Source of the DNA: Lentisphaerae bacterium GWF2_49_21
GTDB lineage: Bacteria > Verrucomicrobiota > Lentisphaeria > Victivallales > GWF2-50-93
Assembly (NCBI GenBank): GCA_001804805.1
Contig: MHBH01000014.1
Span: 1 to 37,885 of the forward strand
Length of the DNA stretch: 37,885 nucleotides
Direction: 5' to 3'
Both the position numbers and the translations under genes were made by a program. The notes below the pieces were generated by a model that saw nothing but the letters and a program-made list of their open reading frames with translations, was not told where the DNA came from and did no database searches. This document shows, piece after piece, positions 8,617-37,689 of this stretch (its first letter is position 1; every line of letters begins with the position of its first letter).

Positions 8617-9309
8617 ATGGGCAAAGGCAACATATTCGCTGTAGATGACGAGGAAGACATACTTGAGCTTATCCGCATGAACCTTGAAAAAGAGGGCTAC
8701 AAGGTCACATCCATCGGCACCGGAGAGGAATGCCTGAAGAAGTCACGTGAAAAAATTCCTGATCTGATCCTGCTGGACCTGATGCTTCCCGGAATTGACG
8801 GACTCGATGTATGCAGGACCTTGAAGAACGATTCCAAGACACGTCACATCCCGATAATCATGTTGACGGCGAAAGGCGAGGAGAGCGACATTGTCACAGG
8901 TCTTGAGCTTGGCGCCGACGACTACATTACAAAGCCGTTCAGCATGAAAGTCCTGCTGGCAAGGATCAAATCAGTGATTAGGAAAGGAACTGCTCCGGCT
9001 GCAACGGGTTCTGCGGAAGTCATCAAGAGGAGAAACATGGTCATCGATCCGGGCCGCCGTGAAGTCACGGTTGGAGGCAAGGCGATTGAACTTACATTCA
9101 CCGAATTTGAAGTCCTGGCTTTTCTTGCAAGAAGGCCGGGCTGGGTCTTTACCAGGAATCAGATCGTTGAGGGTGTCAAGGGCGGAGGATATCCTGTGAC
9201 CGAACGGGCGGTGGATGTGCAGATTGTCGGGCTCAGGAAGAAGCTTGGAGCTGCAGCAGAGCTGATTGATACTATCAGAGGGGTTGGATACAAGTTCATG
9301 GATCGATGA
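8617..9309 (+). CDS. phoB: PhoB-type phosphate response regulator
   Basis: 230 residues, the usual OmpR/PhoB length. The receiver domain (1-120) has acidic residues D10 and D11, phospho-acceptor D54 in LILLDLMLPG and the conserved K106 in TKPF. The C-terminal winged helix (about 132-230) contains ELTFTEFEVLAFLARRPGWVFTRNQI and ERAVDVQIVGLRKKLG, with the GVGYKF ending typical of PhoB. It lies 16 bp upstream of a PhoR-like kinase gene in a phosphate-uptake cluster, which supports PhoB over other OmpR-family members. It probably binds the 11-bp-periodic CTAAC repeats found before the downstream genes. Confidence 0.9.
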   Translation: MGKGNIFAVDDEEDILELIRMNLEKEGYKVTSIGTGEECLKKSREKIPDLILLDLMLPGIDGLDVCRTLKNDSKTRHIPIIMLTAKGEESDIVTGLELGADDYITKPFSMKVLLARIKSVIRKGTAPAATGSAEVIKRRNMVIDPGRREVTVGGKAIELTFTEFEVLAFLARRPGWVFTRNQIVEGVKGGGYPVTERAVDVQIVGLRKKLGAAAELIDTIRGVGYKFMDR

Positions 9310-9325: not shown

Positions 9326-11089
9326 ATGGCGAGAAAAACAATATTCTATCATATACTCCCTTATTATCTCCTAGTAATAGTCCTTACTCTTTTCACATCG
9401 GCCTGGTATACGACCGTTCTCCTGAAGAAATTCTACTTCAAGCACGTCCAGGAGGAGCTTGAGATCAGGTGTTCGCTGGTTGAAAAGGATGTTGCCGATC
9501 TAATGGCCTCGTCGGATTACAATGGTCTTGACCTCTTCTGCAAGAAGTTCTACAAGGCGAACAATTCAAGGTTGACAGTAATAGCGCCCGACGGAAAGGT
9601 CCTCGCCGATTCGATAGAGGATCCTGCGAAGATGGAGAATCATGCTGGGCGCATCGAGATTGATGATGCATTGAAGAACCTTACTGGAAGATCGATCAGA
9701 TACAGCCCCACATTGCACCAGAATATGATGTATATCGCGATGCCTCTGCCCATCAAGGGGAAGGATTCGTCCGTCCTGAGGATATCGGTGCCCGTAGGTT
9801 TCATAGACAAGACATTATCCGAAATATATAGGAAGATAATCTATGCGGGAATCGCCATTGCGGTCCTGGCGACGCTTATAGGAGTATTTGTTTCACGCCG
9901 GATATCCAGCCCGATACTTGCCCTTGAAAAGGGTGCTGCGAACTTCGCAAAGGGGGATTTCAGCAGGAAGCTCCAGGTTCCGGACATCGACGAGATAGGC
10001 GAACTTGCCGGCTCCATGAATTTCATGGCGGACGAGCTGAACAGGAGGATGAGGGAGATCCTTGAACAGCGCAACCGGCAGAACGCGATCCTTTCAAGCA
10101 TGATGGAGGGAGTGATCGCAGTGGATGCCGAAGGAAGAATACTCAGCATCAACCGCGCCGCGGCGCTTCTTCTCAAGACGCCGGAGTCTTATCAGGACAA
10201 GCTGTTCCATGAGATCATCAGGAATGCGGCACTGCAGAATTTCATAGACAGCGTTCTTGAAGAGAAGAAGACCATAGAGAAGGAGCTCAGCTTCTTCGAC
10301 GATGAACAGCGCAGCCTGTATGTGCGAGGAACCGTGCTAAACGATTCCGAGGGCGGATGCATCGGTGCGCTTCTTGTGATCAACGACATAACCCGCCTAA
10401 AGAAGCTTGAGAACATGAGGAGTGAATTCGTAGCCAACGTCTCGCATGAGATCAAGACGCCTCTCACCGCGATAAAGGCGTCTGTAGAAACCTTGCTTGA
10501 CGGGGGAACTGCAAAGGATGACATGGAGAACCTCCTCAGGATCATCAGCAGGCATACCGAGAGGCTGACTTCCATAGTCGATGACATCCTGAGCCTTTCA
10601 AAGCTCGAGCAGGACAAGATGCAGGACGATCAGAAGCTTTCCGAGACACTGCTGGAAACCGTTGTAGAAGGCGCCATCGCCGACTGCAGGGAGAAGGCGG
10701 AGAAGAAAGAGATAGGCTTTGTAATGAACTGCAACAAAGGCATAGTCGGAAAGATGAACAGCTCGCTGATGGAACAGGCTCTTGTCAACCTCATCGACAA
10801 TGCCATCAAATACAGCGATGAAAAAAGTTCAGTGGAAATTGAGACTTTCAAGGACGATGGGAAGATCTTCATGCGCGTCAAGGATCACGGCTGCGGAATC
10901 CCACAGGAGCACCTCTCCCGGATATTCGAGAGGTTCTACCGTGTCGACAAGGGCCGCAGCAGGAAGCTTGGGGGGACAGGTCTCGGCCTTTCCATCGTAA
11001 AGCACATTGCGAACTTGCATGGCGCCAAGGTCGAAGTCGAGAGCGTCGTCGGCAAAGGCAGCACGTTCACGATAATACTCCCCGGGTAA
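9326..11089 (+). CDS. phoR: PhoR-type sensor histidine kinase
   Basis: 587 residues. Transmembrane segments lie at about 12-34 and 169-191 and flank a periplasmic domain of about 130 residues. A HAMP linker (191-243) and a PAS domain (about 250-355) follow, then HisKA with phospho-acceptor H374 in NVSHEIKTPLTAIK. The catalytic ATPase domain has NLIDNAIKYSD, DHGCGIP and GGTGLGLSIVKHI. This order matches PhoR/PhoR-like kinases that sense phosphate status through PstSCAB and PhoU, all encoded downstream. AGGGTGA precedes the ATG. The TAA stop is inside a 46-bp perfect palindrome, so transcription probably ends or is processed there. Confidence 0.88.
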   Translation: MARKTIFYHILPYYLLVIVLTLFTSAWYTTVLLKKFYFKHVQEELEIRCSLVEKDVADLMASSDYNGLDLFCKKFYKANNSRLTVIAPDGKVLADSIEDPAKMENHAGRIEIDDALKNLTGRSIRYSPTLHQNMMYIAMPLPIKGKDSSVLRISVPVGFIDKTLSEIYRKIIYAGIAIAVLATLIGVFVSRRISSPILALEKGAANFAKGDFSRKLQVPDIDEIGELAGSMNFMADELNRRMREILEQRNRQNAILSSMMEGVIAVDAEGRILSINRAAALLLKTPESYQDKLFHEIIRNAALQNFIDSVLEEKKTIEKELSFFDDEQRSLYVRGTVLNDSEGGCIGALLVINDITRLKKLENMRSEFVANVSHEIKTPLTAIKASVETLLDGGTAKDDMENLLRIISRHTERLTSIVDDILSLSKLEQDKMQDDQKLSETLLETVVEGAIADCREKAEKKEIGFVMNCNKGIVGKMNSSLMEQALVNLIDNAIKYSDEKSSVEIETFKDDGKIFMRVKDHGCGIPQEHLSRIFERFYRVDKGRSRKLGGTGLGLSIVKHIANLHGAKVEVESVVGKGSTFTIILPG

Positions 11090-11131: not shown

Positions 11132-11155
11132 ATCTAACAGAAAACTCACAGTTGC

Positions 11156-11193
11156 CTAATACCCCTCTAATCCTTTCCTGATACAATGATAAC
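11156..11193 (+). promoter_or_regulatory. Putative Pho box and -10 element of the phosphoesterase gene
   Basis: CTAAT (11156), CTAAT (11167), CTGAT (11178) and ATAAC (11189) are spaced exactly 11 bp apart. TACAAT at 11182-11187 starts 15 bp after the second repeat, the same distance as in the secretin promoter. Initiation from it would fall at about 11194, essentially at the ATG at 11195, implying a leaderless mRNA. Confidence 0.6.
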
Positions 11194-11194
11194 T

Positions 11195-11929
11195 ATGAAA
11201 TATAAAACCATATTTATCAGCGATGTCCATCTCGGGACAACAGTCTCGCAGACCGATAAGCTTCTGAAGTTTTTAAAGGAAAATGAATTCGAGAAGCTTT
11301 ATCTGGTCGGGGACATTGTCGACATGACTGCAATCAGGCGCCGGTATTTCTACTGGAATGAGGATAATAATACACTGCTCCAGAAAATCCTCCGCATGGC
11401 GAGGAAAGGGATCCAGGTGGAATACATAGTCGGAAACCATGATATCTTCCTGGAGTTCTTCGCCCATGAGTATTTCGGGAACATCGGTCTTAAGGAAAGG
11501 GATGTCCATGTCACCGCCAACGGTACAAGATGTCTTGTTATGCACGGGCATCAGTTTGACGGGGTGATCAAGAAAATGCCTTTGTTATACTGGCTCGGGG
11601 ATACCATGTATGATTTCGCGCTTTTCATAAACATATGGTTCAACAGGATCAGGTATCTCCTCGGGAAGGACTACTGGTCATTGTCGCTCTATCTCAAGAC
11701 AAAGGTGAAGAATGTCGTGAAGTTCATAGGCAATTATGAACAGCTCGTGATCCATGAAGTGAAAAAGGACACGAGTATCGGCGCAGTCATAGTCGGGCAT
11801 ATCCACATGGCGGCCGACAAGGAAATTTCCAGAATACGGTATTTGAACTGCGGATGCTGGACGGAGTTCTGTTCCGCGGTGGTGGAGCACGAGGATGGAA
11901 GACTTGAGCTGCTAAGGATTGAAGAATAA
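11195..11929 (+). CDS. PlcP/LpxH-like metallophosphoesterase, putative Pho-regulated phospholipase C
   Basis: 244 residues from the ATG at 11195 (an ATG at 11186 is possible but lies in the promoter repeats). All calcineurin-type metal motifs are visible: SDVHLG (D10, H12), VGD (D40), GNHD (81-83), HGHQFD (from H117) and GHIH (H202, H204). The stretch DYWSLSLYLKTKVKNVVKFI and the C-terminal NCGCWTEFCSAVVEHEDGR resemble proteins usually annotated UDP-2,3-diacylglucosamine diphosphatase, which include PlcP of Sinorhizobium. PlcP degrades phospholipids under phosphate limitation so that non-phosphorus lipids can replace them. The Pho-box-like promoter favours that role over LpxH, but LpxH-like activity cannot be excluded. 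Confidence 0.78.
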   Translation: MKYKTIFISDVHLGTTVSQTDKLLKFLKENEFEKLYLVGDIVDMTAIRRRYFYWNEDNNTLLQKILRMARKGIQVEYIVGNHDIFLEFFAHEYFGNIGLKERDVHVTANGTRCLVMHGHQFDGVIKKMPLLYWLGDTMYDFALFINIWFNRIRYLLGKDYWSLSLYLKTKVKNVVKFIGNYEQLVIHEVKKDTSIGAVIVGHIHMAADKEISRIRYLNCGCWTEFCSAVVEHEDGRLELLRIEE

Positions 11930-11975: not shown

Positions 11976-12029
11976 TTAACACAATATTACCTCCCCCCTA
12001 ATCTTATCCTAACACTGCAATTGTAGAAT
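11976..12029 (+). promoter_or_regulatory. Putative Pho box and -10 of the secretin operon
   Basis: TTAAC (11976), TTACC (11987), CTAAT (11998) and CTAAC (12009) are in exact 11-bp register. TAGAAT at 12024-12029 is a good -10, starting 15 bp after the last repeat. The first repeat and the flanking ACAAT also match the pit site at 20175. Transcription would begin near 12036, about 50 nt before the secretin start codon. Confidence 0.65.
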
Positions 12030-12085
12030 AATTCTCATAATCAATGAATTCTATTGCCAATAAAATAAAAACTAAGGGGAGAAAG

Positions 12086-13495
12086 ATGAACTTGAAGAGA
12101 AAATTTCTCGCTGGAGGCGCGGTGCTCGCGATCTTTGCAGGAGCGGTATTCGCCCAGGAGACGAGGGAGATCCGTGTGACGGAGGACCGTGACCAGGCGT
12201 ATTTCACCACGAAGGTCTATGAACTCAAGAACACTCTGGCCACGGACATCACACCGTTCGTTATTGGCGCAGTGCAGCGCTATGACAAGTTCTCAAGCGT
12301 AGAGAGGATGAACGACAAGGCGAACAAGCGCCAGATGCTCACCGTGAACATGCCTGTTGTCATGGTCCCATATATAGACGACATGATTGAGAAGATAGAT
12401 CGCCCCGGAACCAAGGACGGGCAGAATTCAGTGATCCAGAGTACAGGCATTGCCAAGTTCGTCTATTATCCTGAACACCGCGCATCTGCCGACATGCTTC
12501 CGATAGGTCCTGCTGTCGGAAGTTCCGACGGGGCATATTTCTTCGACAAGGAGAACAACATGTTCTACTGGAAGGATGTAAAGTCGAAAGGCGAGAGCGC
12601 GTCGAAATACTACCAGGCGTTCGACAGGCCCGTACCGCAGGTATCGCTTCAGCTGAACGTCTACGAGATCAATGAGAACGATATCAAGGAACTTGGAATA
12701 GACTACATAAGCTGGAAGAATGGCCCCGGCGCGAATCTGTTCAGCACTGGTTTTGATTTCCTGAACATGAAGTCGTTTACTGATGTTTCTAACTGGATGA
12801 ATTCCACGGACATCATAGGCAAGGCATCGCACAGCTGGGGCGGATTCCTGATCGCTCCGAACATAGACATGACCTTCATAAGGCTCCTTGCACAGAAGGG
12901 CAAGGCCAGGATATCAACATCCGGATCCCTGACGCTGGTCAACGACTATGCAAATGATCCGCAGAATTTCTCCAAGGCAAAATACAAGCTCAGGTTCACG
13001 CCCAGCTTCCAGGACATAAAGAAGGACGACAAGCAGAACGCAAGTATCAGCCAGGCGGCCTCCGACTTCTACTTCTACCTCAAGCGCCCGACTATCAATT
13101 TCAACGGCGAAGAAGGCCAGAAGGCCATGATGATGGAGTTCGGATACGAGTTGAACATACTTGACACCGTCGAGCAGACCAGCAAGGGAACCCCCGTCCA
13201 GAACGTGAACAATTTCAGCTCATGGCTGACCGTCGCCGCCGATACCGAGAAGATTGTCGGCACTTATGACAGGGAGCAGGATGTGAGCCAGTACAACGGG
13301 ATGCCTTTTCTCGGCGACATACCTGTTCTCAAATATCTTTTCGGCGCAGTCGAGCATTCCAAGTCCAGGACGAAGGTGTTTGTGACCGTGACTATCAAGC
13401 CTGTTACTCCGGTGGACGATCTCCCGGAGTGGTCAGGCAAGGCTGTGACCATCAGGGAGATGCTTGCCGCAAAAAAAATTGAAGATAATAAATAA
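12086..13495 (+). CDS. Secretin-family outer-membrane protein, Pho-associated (first of pair)
   Basis: 469 residues. The ATG at 12086 is preferred because AGGGGAG precedes it and a signal peptide follows at once (MNLKRKFLAGG, cut probably after VFA at residue 23); an upstream in-frame ATG at 12044 lacks these. Residues about 30-105 look like a secretin N-type ring domain. The secretin core begins near PQVSLQLNVYEI (184), continues through QKGKARISTSGSLTLVN (270-286) and ends with the hallmark PFLGDIPVLKYLFG (from 407) and VTVTIKPV. Secretins form multimeric outer-membrane channels. No other type II/III secretion or pilus assembly gene is present in the window. It shares WKNGPG (210) with the next gene, so the two are paralogues. 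Confidence 0.82.
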   Translation: MNLKRKFLAGGAVLAIFAGAVFAQETREIRVTEDRDQAYFTTKVYELKNTLATDITPFVIGAVQRYDKFSSVERMNDKANKRQMLTVNMPVVMVPYIDDMIEKIDRPGTKDGQNSVIQSTGIAKFVYYPEHRASADMLPIGPAVGSSDGAYFFDKENNMFYWKDVKSKGESASKYYQAFDRPVPQVSLQLNVYEINENDIKELGIDYISWKNGPGANLFSTGFDFLNMKSFTDVSNWMNSTDIIGKASHSWGGFLIAPNIDMTFIRLLAQKGKARISTSGSLTLVNDYANDPQNFSKAKYKLRFTPSFQDIKKDDKQNASISQAASDFYFYLKRPTINFNGEEGQKAMMMEFGYELNILDTVEQTSKGTPVQNVNNFSSWLTVAADTEKIVGTYDREQDVSQYNGMPFLGDIPVLKYLFGAVEHSKSRTKVFVTVTIKPVTPVDDLPEWSGKAVTIREMLAAKKIEDNK

Positions 13496-13515
13496 AATAG
13501 GAAAGGGATATTAAA

Positions 13516-15591
13516 ATGAAAAGAAGAATTGCCCAGATAATGATTTTAGGTGCGGTGGCTTCAATGCCGTTCGCTCTGAGAGCAGAGGATGTGACGGGAG
13601 TTGAAACTCCCAGGTCGGCGCCGCTGGGAAGCCAGATACAGACGCACCTGAGGCTCGACATCAAGGATGACACCAAGAATGTGAAGCTCGTATCGGCCAC
13701 CACCAATCCGAACGTGATCACCAAGACATACGTTCTGAAGAACGCAGATCCTTACGAGTTGCTTCCGTATTTCCAGACCGCAGTCAAGGCGCAGAGGACT
13801 GCAAGCAACACCTCCAAGGTCGAATGCATGAAGTTCAACGACGGCACTGGCGTACTGATAGTGTCAGCTGAAGACTACAGGTTTGGCAGGCAGCAGCAGG
13901 GAATGGGCTTTGACGAGATAATCGCCCTGCTTGACAGGCCTGGTGTCACAGCGTCATCGGGCACGGTCGGCTATGCTTACTTCCCCAAGTATGTAAGCGC
14001 CAGCTGGCTCTATAACGCCCTGCACAATGTCGGCATGAACCAGAGCGGCAGCAAGGAACTGATGGGAGGAAAGGACAAGATCATAGTAGACGCATCCCTG
14101 AACGCCCTTTTCGTGTATGTCCCATCATATCAGGTGAAGAACATTAACGAAATGATAAAGCAGTATGACACACCTGTTTCGGAAGTGAATGTCAAATATT
14201 CCATTTATGAGCTTGATGCGGAAATAGACGGAAGCATCGGAGTAGATTTCCAGGCATGGAAGAACGGCCCTGGATCTGAATTCCTGAACCTCTCAAGCAG
14301 GTTCGGCCAGCAGTGGGATTTCACGAAGAACATCGTTGACTATGCCACGAAAGGCAATTCACGCACGCAGTTCATCAACTTCAGTCCGAAATGGAACAGC
14401 AAGTATCTTGACTTCCTGATGGCGAAAGGAAAGGCGAGCATTGTCACTTCTGGCACGATGAGCATAAAGAACAACCAGGATGCGAGGATAGAGGCGACAA
14501 CGAGGGTGCCGGGATTCCGCGACGGCGCGAAATATTCTGATATTGATGTGATAAGCTACATCCGGTTGAGCGACAAGCGTATCTATGATTCCACTGTTTC
14601 CAGCCAGATAAGTCCTGATTCGACCGGTGCATATGATGACAGGTACAGGCTTACTGCTACCGATGAAAATGGTATTCCAATTGCGATAACCGGCATAGGC
14701 AACACGTATGGAGCCTTTCCCGGGGCGCCGTATCGTGGAGACCTGCAGATCACCAGGATGTTCGATGGTTCGAGATATTATTACTATCTCGAGATGAACG
14801 AAAATGAGGCTTCAGGACAAGGGGCGCAATTTGTAAAGCTCCCATATTACAGGAATGCAGCTGGAGCTCTTCCCGCTTCGCCCCTCACCAATGATGCCTA
14901 TAATCTTGGATACAAGACAAAGGCGTACAATGTGAAGATAGAGAGGCTGACCGCCACTTCCGCCGGTAATGGAGGAGTGCTCAATCCGGTTGGCGGCGGT
15001 ACGGCGGCAACTACGGAAATATTCAACTATGCATGGGTGGCAATGACAAGCTGGGATTCTTCCGAGAACTTCAAGCTTTATAAGGATGTTGCGCGCGATA
15101 CGGCGATAGACGGATATGGGTTTGTGATGAACATCAGGCCGGTCACTTGCGAAAAATCGAGTACTCTCGATATCAGCATGGGGAATACCAGCCTTATCGG
15201 ATACCAGGACAACGGTGCGCCCAGGACATCCAAGAGCGAGATGAGCACCAAGGTCGTAGTCAACAACAACGGCAGTGAGTTCGTGATCGGCGGTTTGGAC
15301 AAGAAGTCGATAGTCACAAGCGTCGACAAGCTGCCTTGGCTCGGGGATATCCCGGGTCTCGGCTGGTTGCTTGGCAGCGAATCTCCGACCACCAAGAAGT
15401 CCCAGCTTGTAGCAGTCATACAGTGTGTGCCTGTGATGCCTGAAACCAAGGTGCCGGAAGACTTGAAGAAAGAGATCGAACAGATGACCGAGAAGATTGT
15501 GTCGGCTGGAGAGGCCTTCAAGCTTAACCAGGTAGGATATGATCAGTACCTGCTTGACGGGGAAAAGAAGGGAATTGACCCTCTGCCCTGA
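13516..15591 (+). CDS. Secretin-family outer-membrane protein, Pho-associated (second of pair)
   Basis: 691 residues with a signal peptide (cut probably after LRA at residue 23). Two N-domain-like segments lie at about 70-142 and 150-217; the second includes IIVDASLNALFVYVPSYQVKN. The secretin core starts near 222 and has WKNGPG at 248-253 and MAKGKASIVTSGTMSIKNN at 302-320. A Tyr/Asn-rich insertion of about 185 residues (335-520) is absent from the shorter paralogue. The end carries LPWLGDIPGLGWLLG (606-620). It starts 20 bp after the first secretin gene, with GGAAAGGGA upstream, and is surely in the same operon. The insertion may form a cap, gate or extracellular loop; this is inference. 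Confidence 0.82.
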   Translation: MKRRIAQIMILGAVASMPFALRAEDVTGVETPRSAPLGSQIQTHLRLDIKDDTKNVKLVSATTNPNVITKTYVLKNADPYELLPYFQTAVKAQRTASNTSKVECMKFNDGTGVLIVSAEDYRFGRQQQGMGFDEIIALLDRPGVTASSGTVGYAYFPKYVSASWLYNALHNVGMNQSGSKELMGGKDKIIVDASLNALFVYVPSYQVKNINEMIKQYDTPVSEVNVKYSIYELDAEIDGSIGVDFQAWKNGPGSEFLNLSSRFGQQWDFTKNIVDYATKGNSRTQFINFSPKWNSKYLDFLMAKGKASIVTSGTMSIKNNQDARIEATTRVPGFRDGAKYSDIDVISYIRLSDKRIYDSTVSSQISPDSTGAYDDRYRLTATDENGIPIAITGIGNTYGAFPGAPYRGDLQITRMFDGSRYYYYLEMNENEASGQGAQFVKLPYYRNAAGALPASPLTNDAYNLGYKTKAYNVKIERLTATSAGNGGVLNPVGGGTAATTEIFNYAWVAMTSWDSSENFKLYKDVARDTAIDGYGFVMNIRPVTCEKSSTLDISMGNTSLIGYQDNGAPRTSKSEMSTKVVVNNNGSEFVIGGLDKKSIVTSVDKLPWLGDIPGLGWLLGSESPTTKKSQLVAVIQCVPVMPETKVPEDLKKEIEQMTEKIVSAGEAFKLNQVGYDQYLLDGEKKGIDPLP

Positions 15592-15602
15592 TTAGCGTAG
15601 AA

Positions 15603-15650
15603 CTAATCCGTACCTAACGAAAGTCTAACAATTGAGAAAGAGATTATAAC
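15603..15650 (+). promoter_or_regulatory. Putative Pho box and promoter of pstSCAB
   Basis: CTAAT (15603), CTAAC (15614) and CTAAC (15625) are direct repeats with an exact 11-bp period, beginning 12 bp after the second secretin stop codon. GATTAT (15642-15647) or TATAAC (15645-15650) is the likely -10. This is the cleanest of the Pho-box-like sites in the window and precedes the gene most reliably PhoB-controlled in other bacteria. Confidence 0.75.
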
Positions 15651-15668
15651 AAGAAAGAAGGAGTGAAT

Positions 15669-16697
15669 ATGAAAATGAGCATAAGAAATTTGATAGCAGG
15701 GATAGGCGGTGCGATATGCCTCGCCATTTCCGGAAATTTGTTTGCGGGTACGCTTAATGGAGCCGGCGCCACATTTCCGGCTCCGCTGTACCAGCAATGG
15801 ATTTCAGAATATTCGAAGGTCAGCGGCGGGGTTAAGATAAACTACCAGGCGGTCGGTTCAGGAGCCGGTCTCGCACAGATAAGGGCGAAGACGGTGGATT
15901 TCGGAGCGTCCGATGAACCATTGAAAAAAGAAGATCTCGACAAGGACGGGATGATACAGTTCCCGCTGGCCATGGGGGCAATTGTCCCAGTCGTAAATCT
16001 GCCGGATATAAAGCCCGGGGAACTGAAGTTTTCGGGGCCGGTACTTGTAAAAATATTCATGGGGAAGATTACTTCATGGGCCGATCCTGAGATCACAAGG
16101 ATCAATGAGGGTCTCAAGCTTCCCGATACGAAGATAACAATGGTTCACAGGGCTGACGGTTCAGGTACCACCTGGAATTTCACAAACTACCTGTCGAAGG
16201 TGTCCGAGGAATGGTCCGGAAAATATGGATGCGCAAAGGAGATCGCATGGTTCGAGGGATCTGTAGGCGGGAGGGGCAACTCAGGAGTTGCGGCCATGGT
16301 GAAGAAGATAAAGGGATCTGTCGGATATGTGGAGTCTGCATATGCCTTTGAGAGCAAGATGACTTATACACAGATGCTGAACAAGTCTGGAAAATTTGTA
16401 AAGCCCTGCGATGAATCATTTCAGGCTGCCGCTGAAAATGCCGATTGGAAGAACGCTCCCGGCTTCTATATGGTCCTTACTGATCAGGCTGGAGAGAAGA
16501 GCTGGCCGATCATGGCTTCAACATATATCCTGATCTACAAGAACCAGCCTGACAAGGAGAAGATAGGAAGCCTTACTAAATTTTTTACGTGGTCTTATGA
16601 CAGTGGAACAGGTATAGCGAAAAAACTGAACTATGTGCCAATGCCGAAAAATGTGTCTGATCTTGTCAAGGAAACCTGGAAGAACGAGATAAAATAG
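15669..16697 (+). CDS. pstS: PstS periplasmic phosphate-binding protein
   Basis: 342 residues. ATG 15669 is chosen over a GTG at 15663 because GAAGGAG is ideally spaced to the ATG and overlaps the GTG. A signal peptide runs to about LFAG (residue 26). Mature-protein motifs match PstS: LNGAGATFPAPLYQQW, NYQAVGSGAGLAQI, DFGASDEPL and the phosphate-loop segment RADGSGTTWNFTNYL. VGGRGNSGVAAMVKK is also typical. It delivers periplasmic phosphate to PstCA. It heads the pstSCAB-phoU run behind its own Pho-box-like promoter. Confidence 0.96.
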   Translation: MKMSIRNLIAGIGGAICLAISGNLFAGTLNGAGATFPAPLYQQWISEYSKVSGGVKINYQAVGSGAGLAQIRAKTVDFGASDEPLKKEDLDKDGMIQFPLAMGAIVPVVNLPDIKPGELKFSGPVLVKIFMGKITSWADPEITRINEGLKLPDTKITMVHRADGSGTTWNFTNYLSKVSEEWSGKYGCAKEIAWFEGSVGGRGNSGVAAMVKKIKGSVGYVESAYAFESKMTYTQMLNKSGKFVKPCDESFQAAAENADWKNAPGFYMVLTDQAGEKSWPIMASTYILIYKNQPDKEKIGSLTKFFTWSYDSGTGIAKKLNYVPMPKNVSDLVKETWKNEIK

Positions 16698-16776: not shown

Positions 16777-17718
16777 ATGAAAAAGAGGGACAGGACAAAT
16801 GATTCATATCCTGACAGGATTTTCAGGACGGTTACATATTGCTCCGCGATCCTGATAATAATAATCATGGCCGCCCTCTTCATCCAGTTGCTCTATCACT
16901 CCGTTCCCACGATCAGGAGATTCGGCTTCGAGTTCTTCTGGTCGAAACAATGGGATCCTGTCAATTTAAACTTTGGCGCCCTCAGCAGTATCTACGGTAC
17001 CATTGTCACTTCACTGATAGCGATGCTCATATCCGTGCCTATTAGTTTTGTGATCGCTCTTTTCCTGGTTGAGATGGCCAGTCCCGGAATCAAGAGGATC
17101 GTAAGCCAGGCTTTGGATCTGCTTGCTGCGATTCCAAGCATCATCTTTGGGATGTGGGGCCTTTTCGTGTTCGCCCCCTTCATGCAGGATTATATCCAGC
17201 CGTTCCTCGGTAAATATTTTGGTTTCCTGCCTTTCTTCAAGGGAACTCCCATGGGGATAGGAATGCTGACTTCCGGGCTTATCCTTGCGCTGATGATACT
17301 TCCATTCATAAGTGCAGTGATGAGGGACGTCTTTCAAATGGTTCCACCTGTGGTCAAGGAGTCGGCGTATGGAATTGGTTCGACCACATGGGAGGTATCG
17401 TATCATGTCACTATGAAATATGGACTTCAGGGAATTCTGGGAGCCGTCTTCCTTGGACTGGGAAGGGCCATAGGGGAGACGATGGCCGTCACGTTTGTCA
17501 TAGGAAATGGATATACTGTGAATGCATCTCTCTTTGATCCTGCAACTACCATTGCTTCTACTCTTGCAAGCCAGTTTCCCGAGGCCGTAGCACAGCCGAT
17601 ATTCAAAAGCACGCTGATGGAGCTTGGACTTGTCCTGTTCATTGTGACTTTCGGGATCCAGATGGCCGCCCAGTGGTGGCTTAACAGGATCAGACGTAGT
17701 ACAGGAGGAGGATTGTGA
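16777..17718 (+). CDS. pstC: PstC phosphate ABC transporter permease
   Basis: 313 residues with about six hydrophobic segments, the first at about 20-40. The region around GLFVFAPFMQDYIQPFLG is typical of PstC. The cytoplasmic coupling loop carries VVKESAYGIGSTTWEVSYHV, and GLGRAIGETMAVTFVIGNG is the family hallmark. It pairs with PstA in the inner membrane. It follows pstS by 79 bp and precedes pstA by 42 bp. Confidence 0.95.
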   Translation: MKKRDRTNDSYPDRIFRTVTYCSAILIIIIMAALFIQLLYHSVPTIRRFGFEFFWSKQWDPVNLNFGALSSIYGTIVTSLIAMLISVPISFVIALFLVEMASPGIKRIVSQALDLLAAIPSIIFGMWGLFVFAPFMQDYIQPFLGKYFGFLPFFKGTPMGIGMLTSGLILALMILPFISAVMRDVFQMVPPVVKESAYGIGSTTWEVSYHVTMKYGLQGILGAVFLGLGRAIGETMAVTFVIGNGYTVNASLFDPATTIASTLASQFPEAVAQPIFKSTLMELGLVLFIVTFGIQMAAQWWLNRIRRSTGGGL

Positions 17719-17760
17719 AGACAGACGACGGACGACAGATGGCAGAGAATAATATCAAGG

Positions 17761-18636
17761 ATGAATTCTAATATGAAAAAGAGACCTGTTTTTCTCAGGA
17801 AGATGACCGACAAGATGGTGAAGGTGGTTTCCATCATGGCTGCCTTTGTCGGAATATTCCTTTTGTTCTGGATCCTCTTTGAAGTATTCATGCGGGGATT
17901 TTCCGCATTCAGTCCGAAGTTCTTCATGGACATCAGCCTTGACGGGGAAAATGGAGGAATTGCCAACGCCATAGTCGGAACAGTTGTCATAACTTTCACC
18001 GCGGTCATCCTTGGTGTGCCTGCCGGACTTCTCGGCGGGATATTTCTCTCGGAATATGGCAGGAGCAGCAAGATAGGGAATATAATAAGATTCTCATCCA
18101 ACGTCATGATGGGGATGCCGTCGATCATCATCGGCCTCTTCATATATAGTATTATTGTATATAACATGGGTACATTTTCCGGTTTTTCCGGCGCAGTTGC
18201 GCTTGCGATCATAATGCTTCCTGTTGTACTGAGGACGACCGAGGATATGCTTTCTCTTGTTCCGAATTCCCTGCGCGAGGCGGCGCTGGCGCTTGGCACC
18301 CCTAGATGGAAGGTTACCCTCAATATCCTGTTCAGGGCGGCGAAGACAGGTCTTATAACCGGTGTTCTGCTGGCGACAGCAAGAGTGAGCGGCGAGACGG
18401 CACCGCTGCTTTTCACAGCCCTCAACAGTTATTACTGGCCGGCAGAACCATGCTGGCAGTTCTGGCAGTTCTTCAGTTCACCGACGGCAAACCTTACCGT
18501 CACAATAAATGATTATGCAATGTCCCCCTACCCGGGATTGAACAGCATTGCCTGGGGGGCTTCCCTTCTGATAACATTTGGCGTGCTTGCATTGAACATA
18601 TCCGCGAGAATATTTTTCAGGGAGGAAAAGAAGTGA
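17761..18636 (+). CDS. pstA: PstA phosphate ABC transporter permease
   Basis: 291 residues with about six membrane segments. Landmarks are [22 protein letters not shown], the coupling helix [21 protein letters not shown] and [21 protein letters not shown], all characteristic of PstA. It forms the permease heterodimer with PstC. The start may be 17761 or the in-frame ATG at 17773; neither has a clear Shine-Dalgarno. The stop codon overlaps the start of pstB (TGATG), indicating translational coupling. Confidence 0.94.
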
Positions 18637-19406
18637 TGCATGAAATAAGGGACAATATAAAGATATCCGTAAGAGGACTTAATTTCTTCTACGGTTCCAA
18701 CCAGGCTCTGATTGATAACGATATTGACATCCTGAAGAACAAGGTCACGGCAGTGATCGGCCCATCCGGATGCGGGAAGTCGACACATCTGCGGGTCTAT
18801 AATCGAATATTCGAGCTCTACCGGGAACAGAAGGCCACGGGAACTGTCATGCTCGACGGGGAAAATATACTTTCACCTGATATAGACATACTGGAACTCC
18901 GCAGGAAAGTTGGAATGATCTTCCAGAAGCCGACGCCATTTCCGATGTCGGTCTATGAGAACATAGCATATGGACTCAGGCTCCATTACAAGCTGGGCAG
19001 AGACGAGATCTTTGAGAAGGTCGAAAAGGCCCTCCGTTCAGCTGCATTATGGGATGAGGTGAAGGACAAGCTGGACAAGCCTGGCCTGGCTCTTTCCGGC
19101 GGACAGCAACAGCGGCTCTGCATTGCAAGGGCGATAGCCGTTGAGCCTGAGATAATCCTGATGGATGAACCGACATCCGCAATTGATCCGATTGGAACCG
19201 CGAAGATAGAAGACCTGGTAGGTGAGCTTGAAAAGAAATTTACTATAGTGATTGTCACCCACAACATGCAGCAGGCAGCCAGGATTTCCGACTATACCGC
19301 CTTCTTCTTCGAGGGCAGGATAATTGAATACGGGGAGACCGAGCAGATTTTTACAAAACCTGCGAATAAGAAGACGGAAGATTATATAACCGGAAGATTC
19401 GGGTGA
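18636..19406 (+). CDS. pstB: PstB phosphate ABC transporter ATPase
   Basis: 256 residues from ATG 18636; a GTG at 18633 is an alternative, closer to the GGAGG at 18621-18625. Walker A is GPSGCGKST (about 42-50), where PstB has an almost invariant GPSGCGKST. The signature is [16 protein letters not shown], Walker B is [13 protein letters not shown], and the switch His is in [32 protein letters not shown] is typical PstB. It powers phosphate import through PstCA. The stop is followed at once by an 11-bp-arm hairpin before phoU. Confidence 0.96.
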
Positions 19407-19429
19407 TATTTCAACTGAAGTTGAAATAT
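19406..19429 (+). other. Hairpin between pstB and phoU
   Basis: Perfect 11-bp arms (ATATTTCAACT at 19406-19416 and its complement at 19419-19429) with a 2-nt loop start on the last base of the pstB stop codon. No T-run follows, so attenuation or mRNA stabilisation is more likely than full termination. Confidence 0.6.
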
Positions 19430-19459
19430 TAAAGTAATGATAAAGCAACGGAGGATGAC

Positions 19460-20128
19460 ATGTCAGTACTATTGAACAAGGAAATAACTGGACTTAAGAA
19501 GAAAATACTCCAGATGACGGCAATGGTCGAGGAGAGCGTGAGAAAATCTGTAAATGCTGTAAGACACAAGGATGAAGCTCTGGCGGATGAGGTGATCCGT
19601 ACTGATGATGAAATAGATCTCATGGAAAACGCTCTTGAAGAGGAATGCCTCAAAATACTCGCGCTGCATCAGCCGGTGGCCGCTGATCTGCGTTATGTCG
19701 TGGCCTGCCTGAAGATAAACAATGATCTTGAGCGCATAGGCGATCTTGCTGTAAATATCGCCCAGAGGGCGAAGGCTATTTCCTCCGAGAAGGACGACTT
19801 CATTCCCGGTTCGATATCCGAGATGATTGAAAAGGCGATTTCAATGCTGAAGAAAAGCCTTGATGCCTTCATAGAAACGGATGCTGCCCTCGCAAGGGAG
19901 GTATCATCCCTTGACGATGAAATCGACGCGCTCAACCGGAACATGTACCAGGAAGTCAGGAATATGATCATGCAGGATCCGAAGAGGACCGGCTATCTTC
20001 TCCATGTCCTTGGCGTCTCCCGCCAGCTTGAACGCATAGGCGATTACGCCTGCAACATATCCGAAGATGTGATTTACATGATCGAGGGAAGGATTGTCAG
20101 GCACGACAAGCTGTCGGGCAAGGGATGA
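19460..20128 (+). CDS. phoU: PhoU phosphate signalling regulator
   Basis: 222 residues, the usual PhoU length, composed of two tandem three-helix PhoU repeats. Landmarks are MVEESVRKSVNAV, DDEIDLMENALEEECLKILALHQPVAADLRYVV-type text in repeat 1, and RNMIMQDPKRTGYLLHVLGVSRQLERIGDYACNI in repeat 2. The E/DxxxD metal clusters of PhoU are visible (LERIGDLAVNI and LERIGDYACNI). PhoU links PstSCAB transport activity to PhoR and keeps the Pho response off when phosphate is plentiful. CGGAGG precedes the ATG. Confidence 0.95.
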   Translation: MSVLLNKEITGLKKKILQMTAMVEESVRKSVNAVRHKDEALADEVIRTDDEIDLMENALEEECLKILALHQPVAADLRYVVACLKINNDLERIGDLAVNIAQRAKAISSEKDDFIPGSISEMIEKAISMLKKSLDAFIETDAALAREVSSLDDEIDALNRNMYQEVRNMIMQDPKRTGYLLHVLGVSRQLERIGDYACNISEDVIYMIEGRIVRHDKLSGKG

Positions 20129-20255: not shown

Positions 20256-21257
20256 ATGGATACGACATTAATACTGGTAATAGCAGTAATAGTATTGGCG
20301 CTAATATTTGACTTCCTAAACGGATTTCATGATGCCGCCAACTCCATTGCGACCATTGTAGTCACCAAAACACTTACTCCTGGCCAGGCCGTAGTCATGG
20401 CCGGACTGGCTAATTTCGTAGGTTACTTCACCTTCGGCATGGCAATCGCCAAGACAGTCGGCAAAGGGATAATAAACATTGAAAATATAACCTTGACCAT
20501 CGTACTTGCCGCCTTGGTCGGCGCCATAATCTGGAACATTATAACCTGGATCCTCGGTCTTCCAACCTCGAGCAGCCATGCGCTTATTGGCGGCCTTATC
20601 GGAAGCGCAGTTGCCGCGGCAGGCTTCAAAGCCGTGGTTCTCGGCGGGGTCATAAAAATTGTCGCATTCATCTTTCTGGCGCCCCTGATAGGAATGTTGG
20701 CGGCATCAATATTCACAGTCGCCATAATATGGATGTTCCGGAAGTCAACACCAACCAAGGCAAATACGATTTTCAAGAGGCTCCAGCTTGTGTCTTCTTT
20801 CTGCTACAGTGTCGGACACGGCACAAATGACGCCCAGAAATGCATGGGTATAATTGCCCTGGCTCTTTTCACAGGGGGCATTACAAAAACTTTCCAGCTT
20901 GATACCTGGGTGATAATCTCATGCTACTGTGCAATTTCCCTTGGGACTATGTTCGGAGGCTGGAGAATCGTGAAAACTATGGGCACCAAGATAACGAAGA
21001 TACGTCCGATGGAAGGGTTCTCCGCTGAAACAGCCTCGGCGATCGTCCTGATCGGAACTGCTCACTTTGGTATCCCTGTCAGCACAACCCACGTCATCGC
21101 CGGATCCATCATGGGCGTGGGTGCCGTTGAAAAAGGAGCCGGTGTGCGCTGGGTCACGGCACGCAGGATAATATGGGCCTGGTTCCTGACAATCCCTCTG
21201 ACCGCCCTTTGTTCCGCCTTGACATATTTTGTAATGTCATTCCTTTTACCCGCCTGA
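20256..21257 (+). CDS. pit: Pit-family low-affinity inorganic phosphate transporter
   Basis: 333 residues, a polytopic membrane protein. It carries the duplicated PHO4/Pit signature: DFLNGFHDAANSIATIVVTKTL near the N-terminus and SVGHGTNDAQKCMGIIALALF in the second half. GLPTSSSHALIGGLIGSA and HFGIPVSTTHVIAGSIMGVG are the paired internal repeats. Pit proteins move metal-phosphate with protons. In many genomes pit sits next to a PhoU-like gene, as here. The Pho-box-like promoter is unexpected, since pit genes are usually constitutive or repressed in phosphate starvation. The gene converges on a GT87 gene with a 14-bp gap. Confidence 0.93.
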   Translation: MDTTLILVIAVIVLALIFDFLNGFHDAANSIATIVVTKTLTPGQAVVMAGLANFVGYFTFGMAIAKTVGKGIINIENITLTIVLAALVGAIIWNIITWILGLPTSSSHALIGGLIGSAVAAAGFKAVVLGGVIKIVAFIFLAPLIGMLAASIFTVAIIWMFRKSTPTKANTIFKRLQLVSSFCYSVGHGTNDAQKCMGIIALALFTGGITKTFQLDTWVIISCYCAISLGTMFGGWRIVKTMGTKITKIRPMEGFSAETASAIVLIGTAHFGIPVSTTHVIAGSIMGVGAVEKGAGVRWVTARRIIWAWFLTIPLTALCSALTYFVMSFLLPA

Positions 21258-29411: not shown

Positions 29412-29414
29412 CTA
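29412..29414 (-). other. In-frame amber codon replacing the Trp of a WD motif
   Basis: Reading through the TAG gives GAITM-stop-DSSGGQAVFRL, where WD40 repeats expect I-x-x-W-D. TGG to TAG is a single transition. Both flanking frames are in the same phase and the WD40 pattern continues without a gap. It is therefore a nonsense mutation, a sequencing error or a readthrough codon within one gene spanning 26328-31211. Confidence 0.85.
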
Positions 29415-31211
29415 CATGGTAATGGCACCGGACTGTTCGGCTGTCAGAAAACGTCCGTCCCGGGAAACAGCTACCGCATCAACTGGACTGTCAAGTTCAA
29501 TCTTCAATGATTCCTTGCCGGTGGCTGAGTCCCAGATTCGGACTGTCTTATCACTGCTGCTAGAAAGTATCCTCTTCCCATCTGGGAAAAAAGCTGCGCT
29601 TGTTACTGCCGCCTGGTGTCCGGTCATTACGACAACCTTGGGATTGCAGAGCCGTTTCATACGCCCCCATTCCCAGTTGCGGAAATACGGTTGGCAGCTT
29701 TCGATCATCTCCCGTGCCGAAGACAGATTCTCCTCCTGAACCTTCATCTGGATGGCGCCAATCCGGGCAACATAGGACTCATATTCATCCTCCGTCTGAA
29801 GTTTCTCGGCTTTCACTCTTTGAAGCTCTTCAGCAGTCTTTGCCTTCAATGCCGAATTTCTGGCAATCTCCGCGGCATCGCGCTGATTCTGCGCCTCCTC
29901 TTTGGCTTCGACAGCATTCCTTTCAGCGGTGAGCGCCTGATTCCTCTGAGCAAGTGCAACCACCAGCCCAATAGCCACCGCCAGGAATACGCTCGCTGCT
30001 GCTGCAACGAATCCCTTATGCCGCCCGGCAAACAGCCACAACTGCCTGAACAGTCCAGCCCCCTCTGCGGAGGTCGCAAATCCACCCTGGTATGCTTCAA
30101 TATCCTTCTGGAGATCCTTGACACTCTGGTAACGGTCGTTCTTATCTGGAGACAATGCTTTCATCGCAACTGATGAAAGCGCGGCCGGGACATGTCCTCC
30201 CGGAAGATGCCGAAGCTTAAGCTTGTGACTGTGCTCAAATAATGTTGGCGTTTCTATCCTTCCCTGGACAACCTTCATGAGAATATCGTTGACGTTATCT
30301 CCGCCCACCGGAGGAGACAATGTCAATATGTCGTAGAGAATTGCTCCGAGAGCGTAAATGTCCGACCGATGGTCTATTTCCGACACTTTGCCATAGGCCT
30401 GTTCGGGAGGCATGTAGACAGGCGTACCCATGGCTTTTCCCTCCATGGTCATCGCTCCCTCAACGGAAGCAGTACCATCCGATCTTGATGATTCTACTAT
30501 GGTCCTTGAGCCCGTAGCATCTTCTGACACATCATCCTTCTCCTTCCGCCCTATAACTTTTCCAAGCCCCCAGTCCATCACCAGCACTTCTCCGAATTCC
30601 CCAATCATTATGTTAGCCGGCTTCAAGTCGCGGTGAACTACGCCCTTTGTATGTGAAAACGCCATGGCATCGCAAATCTTGAGGAATATGGTGAGCAGGC
30701 TGTTCAGAGGATACTTTGAAATGATGTCTGGAACTCCGTTCCTGATGCCGTCGATTATGGAATCGAGTGTCACTCCCTTGACGAATTTCATCGTGTAGAA
30801 GACATTGCCCGAAGCATCCACTCCAAGCTCATGTACAGGCACGATGCCCGGATGCTCCATCTGCCCGGTGATCTGCGCCTCCTCGATCAGGCGTATGATC
30901 TGATTGTCCGTGGAACGCTTCGGATCAAGGAGCACCTTCATCGCCACAGTCCGGCGTATGTTCAGGTCCTTCGCCTGCAGGATTGCCCCCATCCCTCCCT
31001 GGTTGACTTTTCTCCCAATGTCATATTTCCTGCCGGCCTGGTCGACAAGCACGGAAGACGCCACGGAGGAGGATTTGCCTTTCTCGTCAAGTGCAACCCC
31101 TCCTTCGATCCCGCACTTCTCCATGAACTGCGTGATCGTCATTCCGTCACGCTTAATGTCCATCGCAAGCGTTTTTTTCAGTTCGGATACTTTGTCTTTT
31201 TCCTCTCCCAT
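29412..31211 (-). CDS. Hanks-type Ser/Thr protein kinase with WD40 repeats (N-terminal part of split gene)
   Basis: 599 residues before the amber. The kinase domain lies at about 62-355: glycine loop VNQGGMGA (69-76), Lys92 in VAMKVLL, catalytic Asp195 in HRDLKPANIM, DWG instead of DFG (D213) and GTPVYMPPEQAYG. DWG is common in PVC-type kinases of this class. One transmembrane helix follows at about 400-421, then a charged coiled coil (422-475), a linker ending NWEWGRMKRLC and the first WD40 units (from 527). The product phosphorylates proteins in the cytoplasm, with a periplasmic sensor tail. AGGGGA precedes the ATG closely. The rest of the protein is in the next frame downstream. Confidence 0.9.
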   Translation of the reverse strand: MGEEKDKVSELKKTLAMDIKRDGMTITQFMEKCGIEGGVALDEKGKSSSVASSVLVDQAGRKYDIGRKVNQGGMGAILQAKDLNIRRTVAMKVLLDPKRSTDNQIIRLIEEAQITGQMEHPGIVPVHELGVDASGNVFYTMKFVKGVTLDSIIDGIRNGVPDIISKYPLNSLLTIFLKICDAMAFSHTKGVVHRDLKPANIMIGEFGEVLVMDWGLGKVIGRKEKDDVSEDATGSRTIVESSRSDGTASVEGAMTMEGKAMGTPVYMPPEQAYGKVSEIDHRSDIYALGAILYDILTLSPPVGGDNVNDILMKVVQGRIETPTLFEHSHKLKLRHLPGGHVPAALSSVAMKALSPDKNDRYQSVKDLQKDIEAYQGGFATSAEGAGLFRQLWLFAGRHKGFVAAAASVFLAVAIGLVVALAQRNQALTAERNAVEAKEEAQNQRDAAEIARNSALKAKTAEELQRVKAEKLQTEDEYESYVARIGAIQMKVQEENLSSAREMIESCQPYFRNWEWGRMKRLCNPKVVVMTGHQAAVTSAAFFPDGKRILSSSSDKTVRIWDSATGKESLKIELDSPVDAVAVSRDGRFLTAEQSGAITM

Positions 31212-35363: not shown

Positions 35364-35960
35364 TCAATGGGCGCAGGCTAGCTGATGCATCTTGATCAGT
35401 TCATCAAGCATGGCCTGCTGGTTCTTGGTGATGTCCTCAGGAAGCACCTTCATTGTCTCCACGTGCCCGTCGGCATATACGATGTTGAAACCTCCGGGAT
35501 GGGCGGACGGCGTCTTCTTCGAGATGTTTGAGACACATGTGAATTCAATGAGTATCCAAGTCTTGTCAGGATCCTTTATTGTTGCCTTGCCTGCAATCGT
35601 ATCGTTGTAGACCCATGTCAGCCCCTTTTCCTTCATGGCATCAGGCATCGCGGGACATATCCATACCTTGTCACCGCTGCCAAGCGCATCTCCCAGAATC
35701 ACCCTGATGCTGTTCTTGTCTGTCTTGGGCTTTTCAGGAAAGAATGCGGCCTTCGGATATTCCCCGCTTTCCAGCTGGAACGCGACTATCGCCTGCCCGA
35801 CCTGGCGCATGTTGTTCATGCATTCGACCTCAAGCCCCTTCTGCTTCACCTTCAGATATGCTCCTGCCGGAATGCTGGTGACAATGGCGGTGACCGCGAG
35901 AAGTTCAGTGAGGGTGAAATACTTGACCACCATCTTCTTCATACTATTTTTTGCCTTCAT
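35364..35960 (-). CDS. Pseudopilin with H-X9-DG motif and degenerate prepilin site
   Basis: 198 residues. The start at 35960 has GGAGG 6 nt upstream. The N-terminus reads VVKYFTLTELLAVTAIV. Relative to the consensus [17 protein letters not shown], the residue before Phe is Tyr and Ile4 is Thr, but Glu5 is kept. The helix is shortened (TSIPAGAYLKVKQKG). Near the end, HPGGFNIVYADGHVETM fits the H-X9-DG motif of PVC prepilin-associated proteins exactly. The start overlaps the end of the upstream kinase gene by 17 bp, so translation is coupled. It is probably a minor pilin-like or secretion-related surface protein. Confidence 0.85.
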   Translation of the reverse strand: MKAKNSMKKMVVKYFTLTELLAVTAIVTSIPAGAYLKVKQKGLEVECMNNMRQVGQAIVAFQLESGEYPKAAFFPEKPKTDKNSIRVILGDALGSGDKVWICPAMPDAMKEKGLTWVYNDTIAGKATIKDPDKTWILIEFTCVSNISKKTPSAHPGGFNIVYADGHVETMKVLPEDITKNQQAMLDELIKMHQLACAH

Positions 35961-37689
35961 CTTCTACCTCCTGTTTGATCCAGATGAATATTCCCCTGTT
36001 CCTTGCCGCCTCGGCAAGATAACCGTCCTTCAATTTCCCGGCTGGCGTGTTCTGCGCCAGTGCCCAGTATCCCAGACCCTTCAAGACCTGCGGACTTGAC
36101 AAACAGTATTTCTCATCCCCATAATTTTTCCCGCGGCTCAGCATGGCCTTGGATAATAACTTAATGTAGCTACCTAAATCCTTGGTGTCAACCAAGGACT
36201 TCTTTCCAGCCCCATCAGCATCCACTATTTCCTGCCATAGCTTAAATGCGTCAGCCTCATTTTCCTGCAGCCAGCTGGCAGCACCGGCTTCGAAGAACGC
36301 AATCTGTCCGCTCAGTGTCTTCTTGCCATATGACTCTGCCACACTTTTGAATATTTCAACGGCCTTGACGTACTGTCCTTTTACCATCGCTATCCTTGCA
36401 AGGCTGTTTTTGGATTCGAGCAGCATTCCTTTGTGGGAATTTTTAACAGCCCATTCTTCTGCCGACTTGAACTGCGGTTCCGCATCATCAAGCCGTCCTC
36501 TGGAAAGGGATTCACGCGCCTTGAGTAGGATTTTCGTACCTTCCTCCATTTCTCCGGCAGTTGACATTCCCTGGTTTTTAAGTGCAGAAATCTCCTCTTC
36601 CAGTCGCTCGGACTTGTGTTTTGCTGCAACAGCACTGATATCCACCTTCTGTTTTGCAATACTTCTTTCACTGGTCATCGGAACAACAAAAAAGTAGTAT
36701 AGGGCTCCCCCGATGGCGAGAAATATAGAGACTGTGATCGCCTGGGCTCTGTGCCGGCGCAGCCATTTCTCCCAACGTTCCGCCAGTGAGAGGCGCCGCA
36801 CTGAAACAGGATTTCCATCCCGGCATGCCTCTAGGTCGGCGCAGACACGGGACATATCCCTATATCGCAGTTTTTTCTCCTTTTCGAGCATCTTGAGGAC
36901 GACCGCCTCGAGGTTACGGCTGATATCCTTGCGCAATTTACGGGGAGGCTTTGCTTCATGTCTGCAGATCATCTTGAACATTTCAGGCAATGGCATGTCA
37001 GGGGTGACAGGATAAGGAGAGACTCCTGTAAGAAGCTCATATACCATGAAACCGAACGAATATATGTCCGACTGGTTCGTGAATTCACCATCTCCTGCGC
37101 CGCATTGTTCCGGTGACATATACCGTGGCGTACCCATGATGGTTCCGGTCAATGTCAGCTGCTGCGAATTCTCCATCTTCGCCAGGCCGAAATCGGCAAG
37201 GAGAGGCTGGTTGAACTCGTTGATGAGGATGTTCGCCGGTTTAAGGTCACGGTGCAAAATCCCCTCGTTGTGAGCAAAGGCAAGGGCCTGCGCCACAGGA
37301 ACCACATAGTCCAGCACTTCCTTTATAGATAAATTCTTTCCTACCATCTCCTTGAGGGTCCGTCCTCCCGGAACTAATTCCATCGCTATATAATAGTCCG
37401 GACCGCTCCGGCCAGTGTCATAGACAGTTATGATATTGGGATGTCTCCTGAGAAGCTTGGATGCCTCAGCCTCGCGGAGGAAACGGCTTATCTCCGCCTG
37501 CGGTACAAACGGGGTGGTGGTCATGACCTTGATGGCAATTTCCGCCTTGTCGGCATCTGCGGCGCGATATACTATGCCGGTGCCTCCTCTTCCAAGGAAC
37601 TCGATGATTCGGTACGGACCTATCTTCCCCTTGGAGATTTCCTGCTGTCCGGCATTGTCACGTGCCAATGTCTCTTCAAAATCGCTCAT
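35944..37689 (-). CDS. Membrane Ser/Thr protein kinase with TPR-like C-terminal domain
   Basis: 581 residues. The kinase domain (about 26-290) has FLGRGGTGIVYRA, Lys54 in IAIKVM, HRDLKPANIL (D148), DFG (D166) and GTPRYMSPEQCG. One membrane helix lies at about 316-337. A coiled-coil stretch follows (343-380), then a helical repeat region (385-560) with TPR-like units such as RESLSRGRLDDAEPQFKSAEEWA and GQYVKAVEIFKSVAESYG. All catalytic residues are present, so it should be active. The gene is co-translated with the pseudopilin downstream. AGGA lies about 9 nt before the ATG. Confidence 0.92.
   Translation of the reverse strand: MSDFEETLARDNAGQQEISKGKIGPYRIIEFLGRGGTGIVYRAADADKAEIAIKVMTTTPFVPQAEISRFLREAEASKLLRRHPNIITVYDTGRSGPDYYIAMELVPGGRTLKEMVGKNLSIKEVLDYVVPVAQALAFAHNEGILHRDLKPANILINEFNQPLLADFGLAKMENSQQLTLTGTIMGTPRYMSPEQCGAGDGEFTNQSDIYSFGFMVYELLTGVSPYPVTPDMPLPEMFKMICRHEAKPPRKLRKDISRNLEAVVLKMLEKEKKLRYRDMSRVCADLEACRDGNPVSVRRLSLAERWEKWLRRHRAQAITVSIFLAIGGALYYFFVVPMTSERSIAKQKVDISAVAAKHKSERLEEEISALKNQGMSTAGEMEEGTKILLKARESLSRGRLDDAEPQFKSAEEWAVKNSHKGMLLESKNSLARIAMVKGQYVKAVEIFKSVAESYGKKTLSGQIAFFEAGAASWLQENEADAFKLWQEIVDADGAGKKSLVDTKDLGSYIKLLSKAMLSRGKNYGDEKYCLSSPQVLKGLGYWALAQNTPAGKLKDGYLAEAARNRGIFIWIKQEVEDEGKK

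Follow-up and report, generated by a model that had tools for sequence, protein, structure and literature searches.

Secretins are familiar as gates through which proteins, pili and phage leave the cell and DNA enters it, and the question raised by the locus described here is what two of them might do inside a phosphate-uptake cluster. The window (the whole stretch of DNA that was analysed, i.e. the entire 37,885 nt contig MHBH01000014.1 of the Lentisphaerota genome GWF2_49_21) carries, just upstream of the phosphate-binding protein gene pstS, two adjacent genes that we label SecA and SecB (names coined for the present analysis and unrelated to the Sec translocase proteins). In our judgement the chances are evenly balanced that SecAB represents a secretin-derived, two-subunit outer-membrane channel for nutrient entry with paralogues dedicated to different nutrients, the window copy being the one belonging to the Pho regulon.

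SecA (+ strand, 12086-13495, 469 aa) and SecB (+ strand, 13516-15591, 691 aa) both begin with a putative signal peptide (judged by eye) and both exceed the cut-off of the Pfam Secretin model (27.5 bits), with 38.2 bits over residues 366-450 and 69.3 bits over residues 534-636, respectively. The first-pass annotation, which had described two signal-peptide-bearing secretin-family proteins, was right on this point, save that the SecA start was moved: the longer reading frame runs from ATG 12044 to 13495 (483 aa), and the ATG at 12086 is the more likely start because a ribosome-binding site (AAGGGGAG) precedes it and the start that aligns in the relatives falls on M15 of the longer frame. Family profiles searched against solved structures recovered secretins only (best matches: f1 pIV, 7ofh, E 6.8e-13 for SecA; GspD, 6i1y, E 1e-21 for SecB). 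Within the sampled members of each family the Secretin domain was detected (E<=0.1) in 16/16 SecA and 16/16 SecB proteins, and the C-terminal secretin motif is kept across the order in both. Secretin_N fell slightly under its cut-off in the window SecB (27.5 against 28.2 bits) and gave no Pfam match in the window SecA; as it was found at E<=0.1 in 13 of the 16 SecB and 7 of the 16 SecA members, we count a ring-building domain as present. An N0/STN domain was not detected at E<=0.1 in any of these 32 proteins, though a highly diverged N0 could escape such a search. By the domains tested, SecA and SecB are thus members of the secretin superfamily. SecB additionally carries a long insert (approximately residues 350-520); the first-pass annotation had reported a unique insertion of about 185 residues, whose existence stands and whose uniqueness does not, the stretch that separates the conserved WKN motif from the C-terminal VIGG motif differing greatly in length among SecB paralogues.

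The pair is widespread in its order and nearly confined to it (in what follows, G-numbers denote genomes, L-numbers loci, f1-f4 families within the order and g21 a genus). SecB matches (E<=1e-20) were present in 53 of 60 relatives, with up to approximately eight copies per genome. Named relatives are the metagenome-assembled genomes Lentisphaerae bacterium GWF2_50_93, 'Victivallis vadensis' MiH-14oct19-33 and GL140_5. A profile search in 241 genomes of the phylum retrieved 56 genomes of the order and only five weak matches elsewhere (best 9.8e-20). Pairing is obligate: in all 47 complete pairs SecA lies directly 5' of SecB (gaps of -13 to 106 bp), and the within-family distances of SecA and SecB correlate strongly (Mantel r 0.94; 0/2000 permutations as high), so that the partners travel together. 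The genome of the window itself encodes a second pair, on contig C20, adjoining Amt and PII genes. As judged from these comparisons, the window pair belongs to a two-gene family that is specific to the order and present in multiple copies, and is not a pst-specific invention. Variant arrangements were also registered, namely two pairs in direct tandem (SecA-SecB-SecA-SecB) at L107 and L186, and two tandem open frames of approximately 890 aa with two Secretin matches each at L202 (G000:C78:30000-45000, at about C78:35000-40700).

Linkage to phosphate uptake is recurrent. SecAB is placed directly 5' of pstS, on the same strand, at 10 of the 28 pstS loci of the 60 relatives, in families f1 (G000, G001, G002, G003, G006), f2 (G022), f3 (G033) and f4 (G024, G029, G032), and the same arrangement was found outside this count in G223 (f3). 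Conservation of the pst neighbourhood, which the first-pass annotation had put forward as a check, was therefore found in four families. Considering that a genome holds a handful of pairs among approximately 3000 genes, we estimate that far below one such linkage would be expected by chance. On the SecA+SecB tree the pst label is spread over several separate clades and needs at least six changes, because of which the link would have been either gained repeatedly or retained selectively.

A putative PhoB-binding signal accompanies this arrangement. Upstream of SecA (+ strand, 11976-12013) four pentamers recur at 11-bp spacing (TTAAC at 11976, TTACC at 11987, CTAAT at 11998 and CTAAC at 12009), exactly the four-repeat Pho box that had been claimed for this position. 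As the sole match of a perfect three-repeat pattern in the whole genome lay inside the pstS box, a matrix was used instead; it was constructed from 21 pstS promoters (SecA promoters excluded) and applied to the 250 bp upstream of genes with a threshold of 10 bits. The window SecA box scored 21.4 bits, a value reached by 0/821 background genes (99.9% quantile 10.5). Scores of at least 10 bits were obtained for 15/82 SecA upstream regions versus 4/1057 other genes (p 6e-15, a nominal value since the related sequences are not independent), while the reversed matrix gave 2/82 and 3/1057. Boxed SecA genes also occur away from pst (L070, L071, L072, L075, L094, L183; the genomes with such pairs include G004, G005, G007, G008, G020 and G226), and because of these the predicted phosphate control shows itself to be no mere by-product of gene order. 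Carrying a predicted PhoB-type direct-repeat box that is conserved among relatives, even where pst lies elsewhere, the pair would be a member of the Pho regulon. Pairs that adjoin Amt, NMT1-type or SBP_bac_8 ATP-binding cassette (ABC) transporter or permease genes are devoid of the box (scores of -2 to -13).

These other pairs were recorded in a neighbour survey seeded by similarity to the window SecB, a descriptive tally in which family f1 is over-represented. Amt/PII genes adjoin SecAB at four f1 loci (in G000, G003, G004 and G007), NMT1-type substrate-binding and permease genes at L078, L156 and L158, the permease of such a system at L099 and L100, an SBP_bac_8 system at L084, PHO4 at L169 and an amino-acid permease at L164. 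The association of SecAB with uptake genes is hence frequent, not universal; the notion that every pair is nutrient-linked was rejected, housekeeping or catabolic genes being the neighbours at many loci. The idea of an undescribed phosphate-responsive outer-membrane pair, advanced in the first-pass annotation, draws support from the linkage and the predicted boxes, but its scope has to be broadened beyond pst, as other copies adjoin Amt/PII, NMT1, SBP_bac_8, PHO4 and amino-acid transport genes.

We propose that SecA and SecB would be diverged copies of a single secretin-type ring protein and that each combines ring-building N-domains with a C-terminal secretin domain (barrel and gate). The two would be made together and would probably form a joint outer-membrane channel of two subunits, mixed or stacked, acting independently of a secretion machine as a gated entry for nutrients. 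Upon phosphate limitation PhoB would bind to the 11-bp repeats and SecAB would be made alongside PstSCAB, the channel admitting phosphate or small phosphate esters to the periplasm and PstS capturing the phosphate, while other paralogous pairs may play the same role for ammonium, NMT1-type ABC substrates and other solutes. That small solutes can pass through a secretin is illustrated by gate mutants of f1 pIV, which let in maltopentaose and antibiotics (PMC8563730).

The setting would be a lineage in which TonB-dependent receptors are all but missing and an OprP-type porin is missing altogether. The TonB-receptor plug was lacking in 40 of 41 genomes (the sole plug-bearing one, G011, is without SecAB), Porin_O_P in all 41, and BBP2 likewise in all 41, the last being a weak test in which the domain was detected in only one control genome, below cut-off. 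SecA and SecB themselves show Secretin-type domains only and neither Porin_O_P nor any other porin domain. The suggestion that the secretins replace a phosphate porin gains from these absences, which are supporting evidence only, other porin families not having been searched. A broader thesis, to which we give somewhat less than even credence, is that this order of Lentisphaerota turned a secretin into a nutrient porin, i.e. a machine-free hetero-oligomer spread among nutrient regulons in the manner of SusCD and replacing TonB-dependent receptors and phosphate porins.

Several observations weigh against a nutrient-entry channel. Many pairs have no evident nutrient neighbour (Rnf subunits, tRNA synthetase, glycosyl hydrolases, MatE and MarR being found instead); linkages within f1 and within genus g21 do not count as independent; and Pho-box scores are low at the pst-linked loci L125, L127, L132 and L201, partly owing to uncertain starts or contig edges. 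AlphaFold2 monomers, computed from six near-identical alignment rows, reached mean pLDDT (predicted local distance difference test) values of only 31 (SecB) and 33 (SecA). Since wild-type secretins are shut at rest and wide once open, the selectivity of such a channel is left unexplained, and sequence does not reveal in which direction it would transport. Lastly, some members of the order (G014, G021, G025, G026, G037) possess neither SecAB nor TonB plugs, so that other channels must exist.

Of the competing explanations the one that survives best, although we regard it as rather unlikely, is starvation-specific export: in a housekeeping machine of type II or of type IV-pilus-like kind, SecAB would stand in for the resident secretin or join it, releasing phosphatases or other scavenging enzymes at low phosphate, as Hxc does, but contributing the outer-membrane part only. 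Hxc is a phosphate-regulated type II secretion system (T2SS) of Pseudomonas. Both SecA and SecB are secretins, T2SSE ATPases and other secretins are encoded on other contigs of the same genome, hydrolase genes adjoin some SecAB copies, and in Caulobacter a 12-gene T2SS lies beside the phosphate-starvation lipoprotein gene elpS, so that there, too, a secretin stands in a phosphate-starvation context (PMC2996285). The Caulobacter and Hxc systems are, however, complete operons, whereas the SecAB locus holds two secretin-like genes only. The absence of adjoining secretion genes, asserted in the first-pass annotation, held as far as the window could be typed: no type II ATPase was found among the window genes scanned, several of the more distant ones being untyped, and DUF1559/N_methyl reading frames lie at least 10 kb from the pair. 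GspE, GspF and GspG were not found co-encoded with SecAB among the window neighbours, on the maps of other loci or by Pfam in selected neighbours, where the lone T2SS-type gene was a T2SSE on the opposite strand (L081), and neighbour clustering yielded no secretion gene family common to the loci. The largest neighbour cluster, in which DUF1559/N_methyl proteins were mixed with kinases, was discarded as evidence.

SecB and SecA reached 84.2 and 35.1 bits with the NCBIfam GspD model (TIGR02517, cut-off 351 bits) and remained far below the cut-offs of the PilQ, MshL and YscC models; by these cut-offs, the domain content and the neighbourhood, SecAB can be assigned neither to the T2SS nor to the type IV pilus or type III secretins. 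N0/STN, the domain that usually docks to the inner-membrane platform, is the one not found in the 32 members, and enzyme export would poorly explain the linkage to Amt/PII and ABC substrate-binding genes. Since no N0 was detected and some copies are linked to Amt or ABC genes, we favour uptake over protein release as the predicted function of SecAB.

Also unlikely is that SecAB constitutes a general, lineage-specific channel family placed under any useful regulator (for efflux, polymer or DNA passage, or envelope stress), the pst copy then having no phosphate-specific role. The numerous copies without a nutrient neighbour would fit such a family, as would the gut-type clades of f3 and f4, in which the module consists, in this order, of a small lipoprotein, SecA, SecB and a MarR-type regulator, MarR regulators often responding to small molecules. 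Against it, several distinct clades show the Pho box and the linkage to pst, and the box persists at pairs away from pst, from which we argue that the pair has a part in responding to phosphate. The small lipoprotein of the gut-type modules may be a dedicated pilotin. It measures approximately 150 aa in L188, L189, L190, L193 and L194, and a lipobox is present in L188, L189, L193 and L194. Least probable by far are secretin-derived proteins that no longer form pores (e.g., scaffolds in the periplasm or at the surface that starvation induces), for which the SecA match to just the C-terminal half of the Secretin model (model positions 77-164) and the long, variable SecB insert might speak, but which sit poorly with a C-terminal motif conserved order-wide in both families and a Secretin match in every sampled member of each.

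SecAB resembles several known systems and differs from each of them. With GspD, PilQ and pIV it shares a homologous C-module and a Secretin_N-type domain, and its structural matches are secretins only; it differs from them in consisting of tandem paralogues, in having no detected N0/STN and no adjoining secretion or pilus operon, in being multi-copy and in its linkage to uptake genes. OprP/OprO and PhoE are Pho-regulated outer-membrane proteins encoded or co-regulated with Pst. They fold as trimeric 16-stranded porins, whereas SecAB is of secretin type without porin homology, and the likeness to a nutrient porin module would lie in arrangement only. The SusCD/TonB-dependent receptor pairs of Bacteroidota are multi-copy, two-gene outer-membrane modules distributed across nutrient-specific loci, and serve here as a working analogy without homology. 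In Akkermansia, a bacterium of the Planctomycetes-Verrucomicrobia-Chlamydiae (PVC) group, a secretin (PilQ, Amuc_1098) is the most abundant outer-membrane protein (PMC4960237); this 95-kD protein is assigned to type IV pili, and its NCBIfam model (Amuc_1098_fam, cut-off 750) gives SecA and SecB just 21-28 bits. A search of the open literature, subscription papers excluded, brought up no prior account of a secretin pair linked to phosphate or other nutrients in Lentisphaerota or PVC bacteria. If the proposed nutrient entry is true, a machine-free, obligate pair kept in many copies and tied to phosphate, ammonium and ABC uptake would put the secretin fold to a new use. SecAB would then also suggest how these bacteria, lacking TonB receptors, take up nutrients through their outer membrane, and would be an obvious candidate for a secretin ring of two subunits.

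The remainder of the cluster is a phosphate locus, encoded on the + strand in the order phoB, phoR, Metallophos gene, SecA, SecB, pstS, pstC, pstA, pstB, phoU and a PHO4 transporter gene (Pfam assignments). The PhoB response regulator (8617-9309) and the PhoR histidine kinase (9326-11089) are followed by a further predicted Pho box (11134-11182; CTAAC, CTCAC, CTAAT, CTAAT, CTGAT at 11-bp spacing) in front of a calcineurin-like metallophosphoesterase gene directly 5' of SecA (11186-11929; Metallophos_2, 43 bits). The pair does lie between this gene and pstS, as had been stated; the accompanying label 'plcP-like' is unproved, the best NCBIfam match being LpxH at 37 bits (cut-off 134), and the gene is best described as putatively LpxH/PlcP-like. 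A metallophosphoesterase gene adjoins SecAB in L065 and L071 too. Immediately behind SecB a predicted pstS Pho box (15592-15629; TTAGC, CTAAT, CTAAC, CTAAC at 11-bp spacing) precedes the PstS phosphate-binding protein (15663-16697; PBP_like_2, 125.8 bits), after which come pstC (16777), pstA (17761), pstB (18633) and phoU (19460), together spanning 16777-20128 (Pfam, with PstC below cut-off; an orthologous cluster is present in L065), and the PHO4-family phosphate transporter (20256-21257; 309.7 bits).

Between pstS and pstC, or right after SecB in a second copy, related loci encode a conserved protein of 195-213 aa (L065:13256-13897, L064:4176-4781, L066:3094-3681) that has no Pfam match in L065. 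Farther out in the window, DUF1559 (SBP_bac_10) proteins are encoded at 1-741 and 35364-35960, the first with an N_methyl prepilin motif, and eukaryotic-like Ser/Thr protein kinases at 29412-31211 and 35944-37689, the first with a WD40 stretch.

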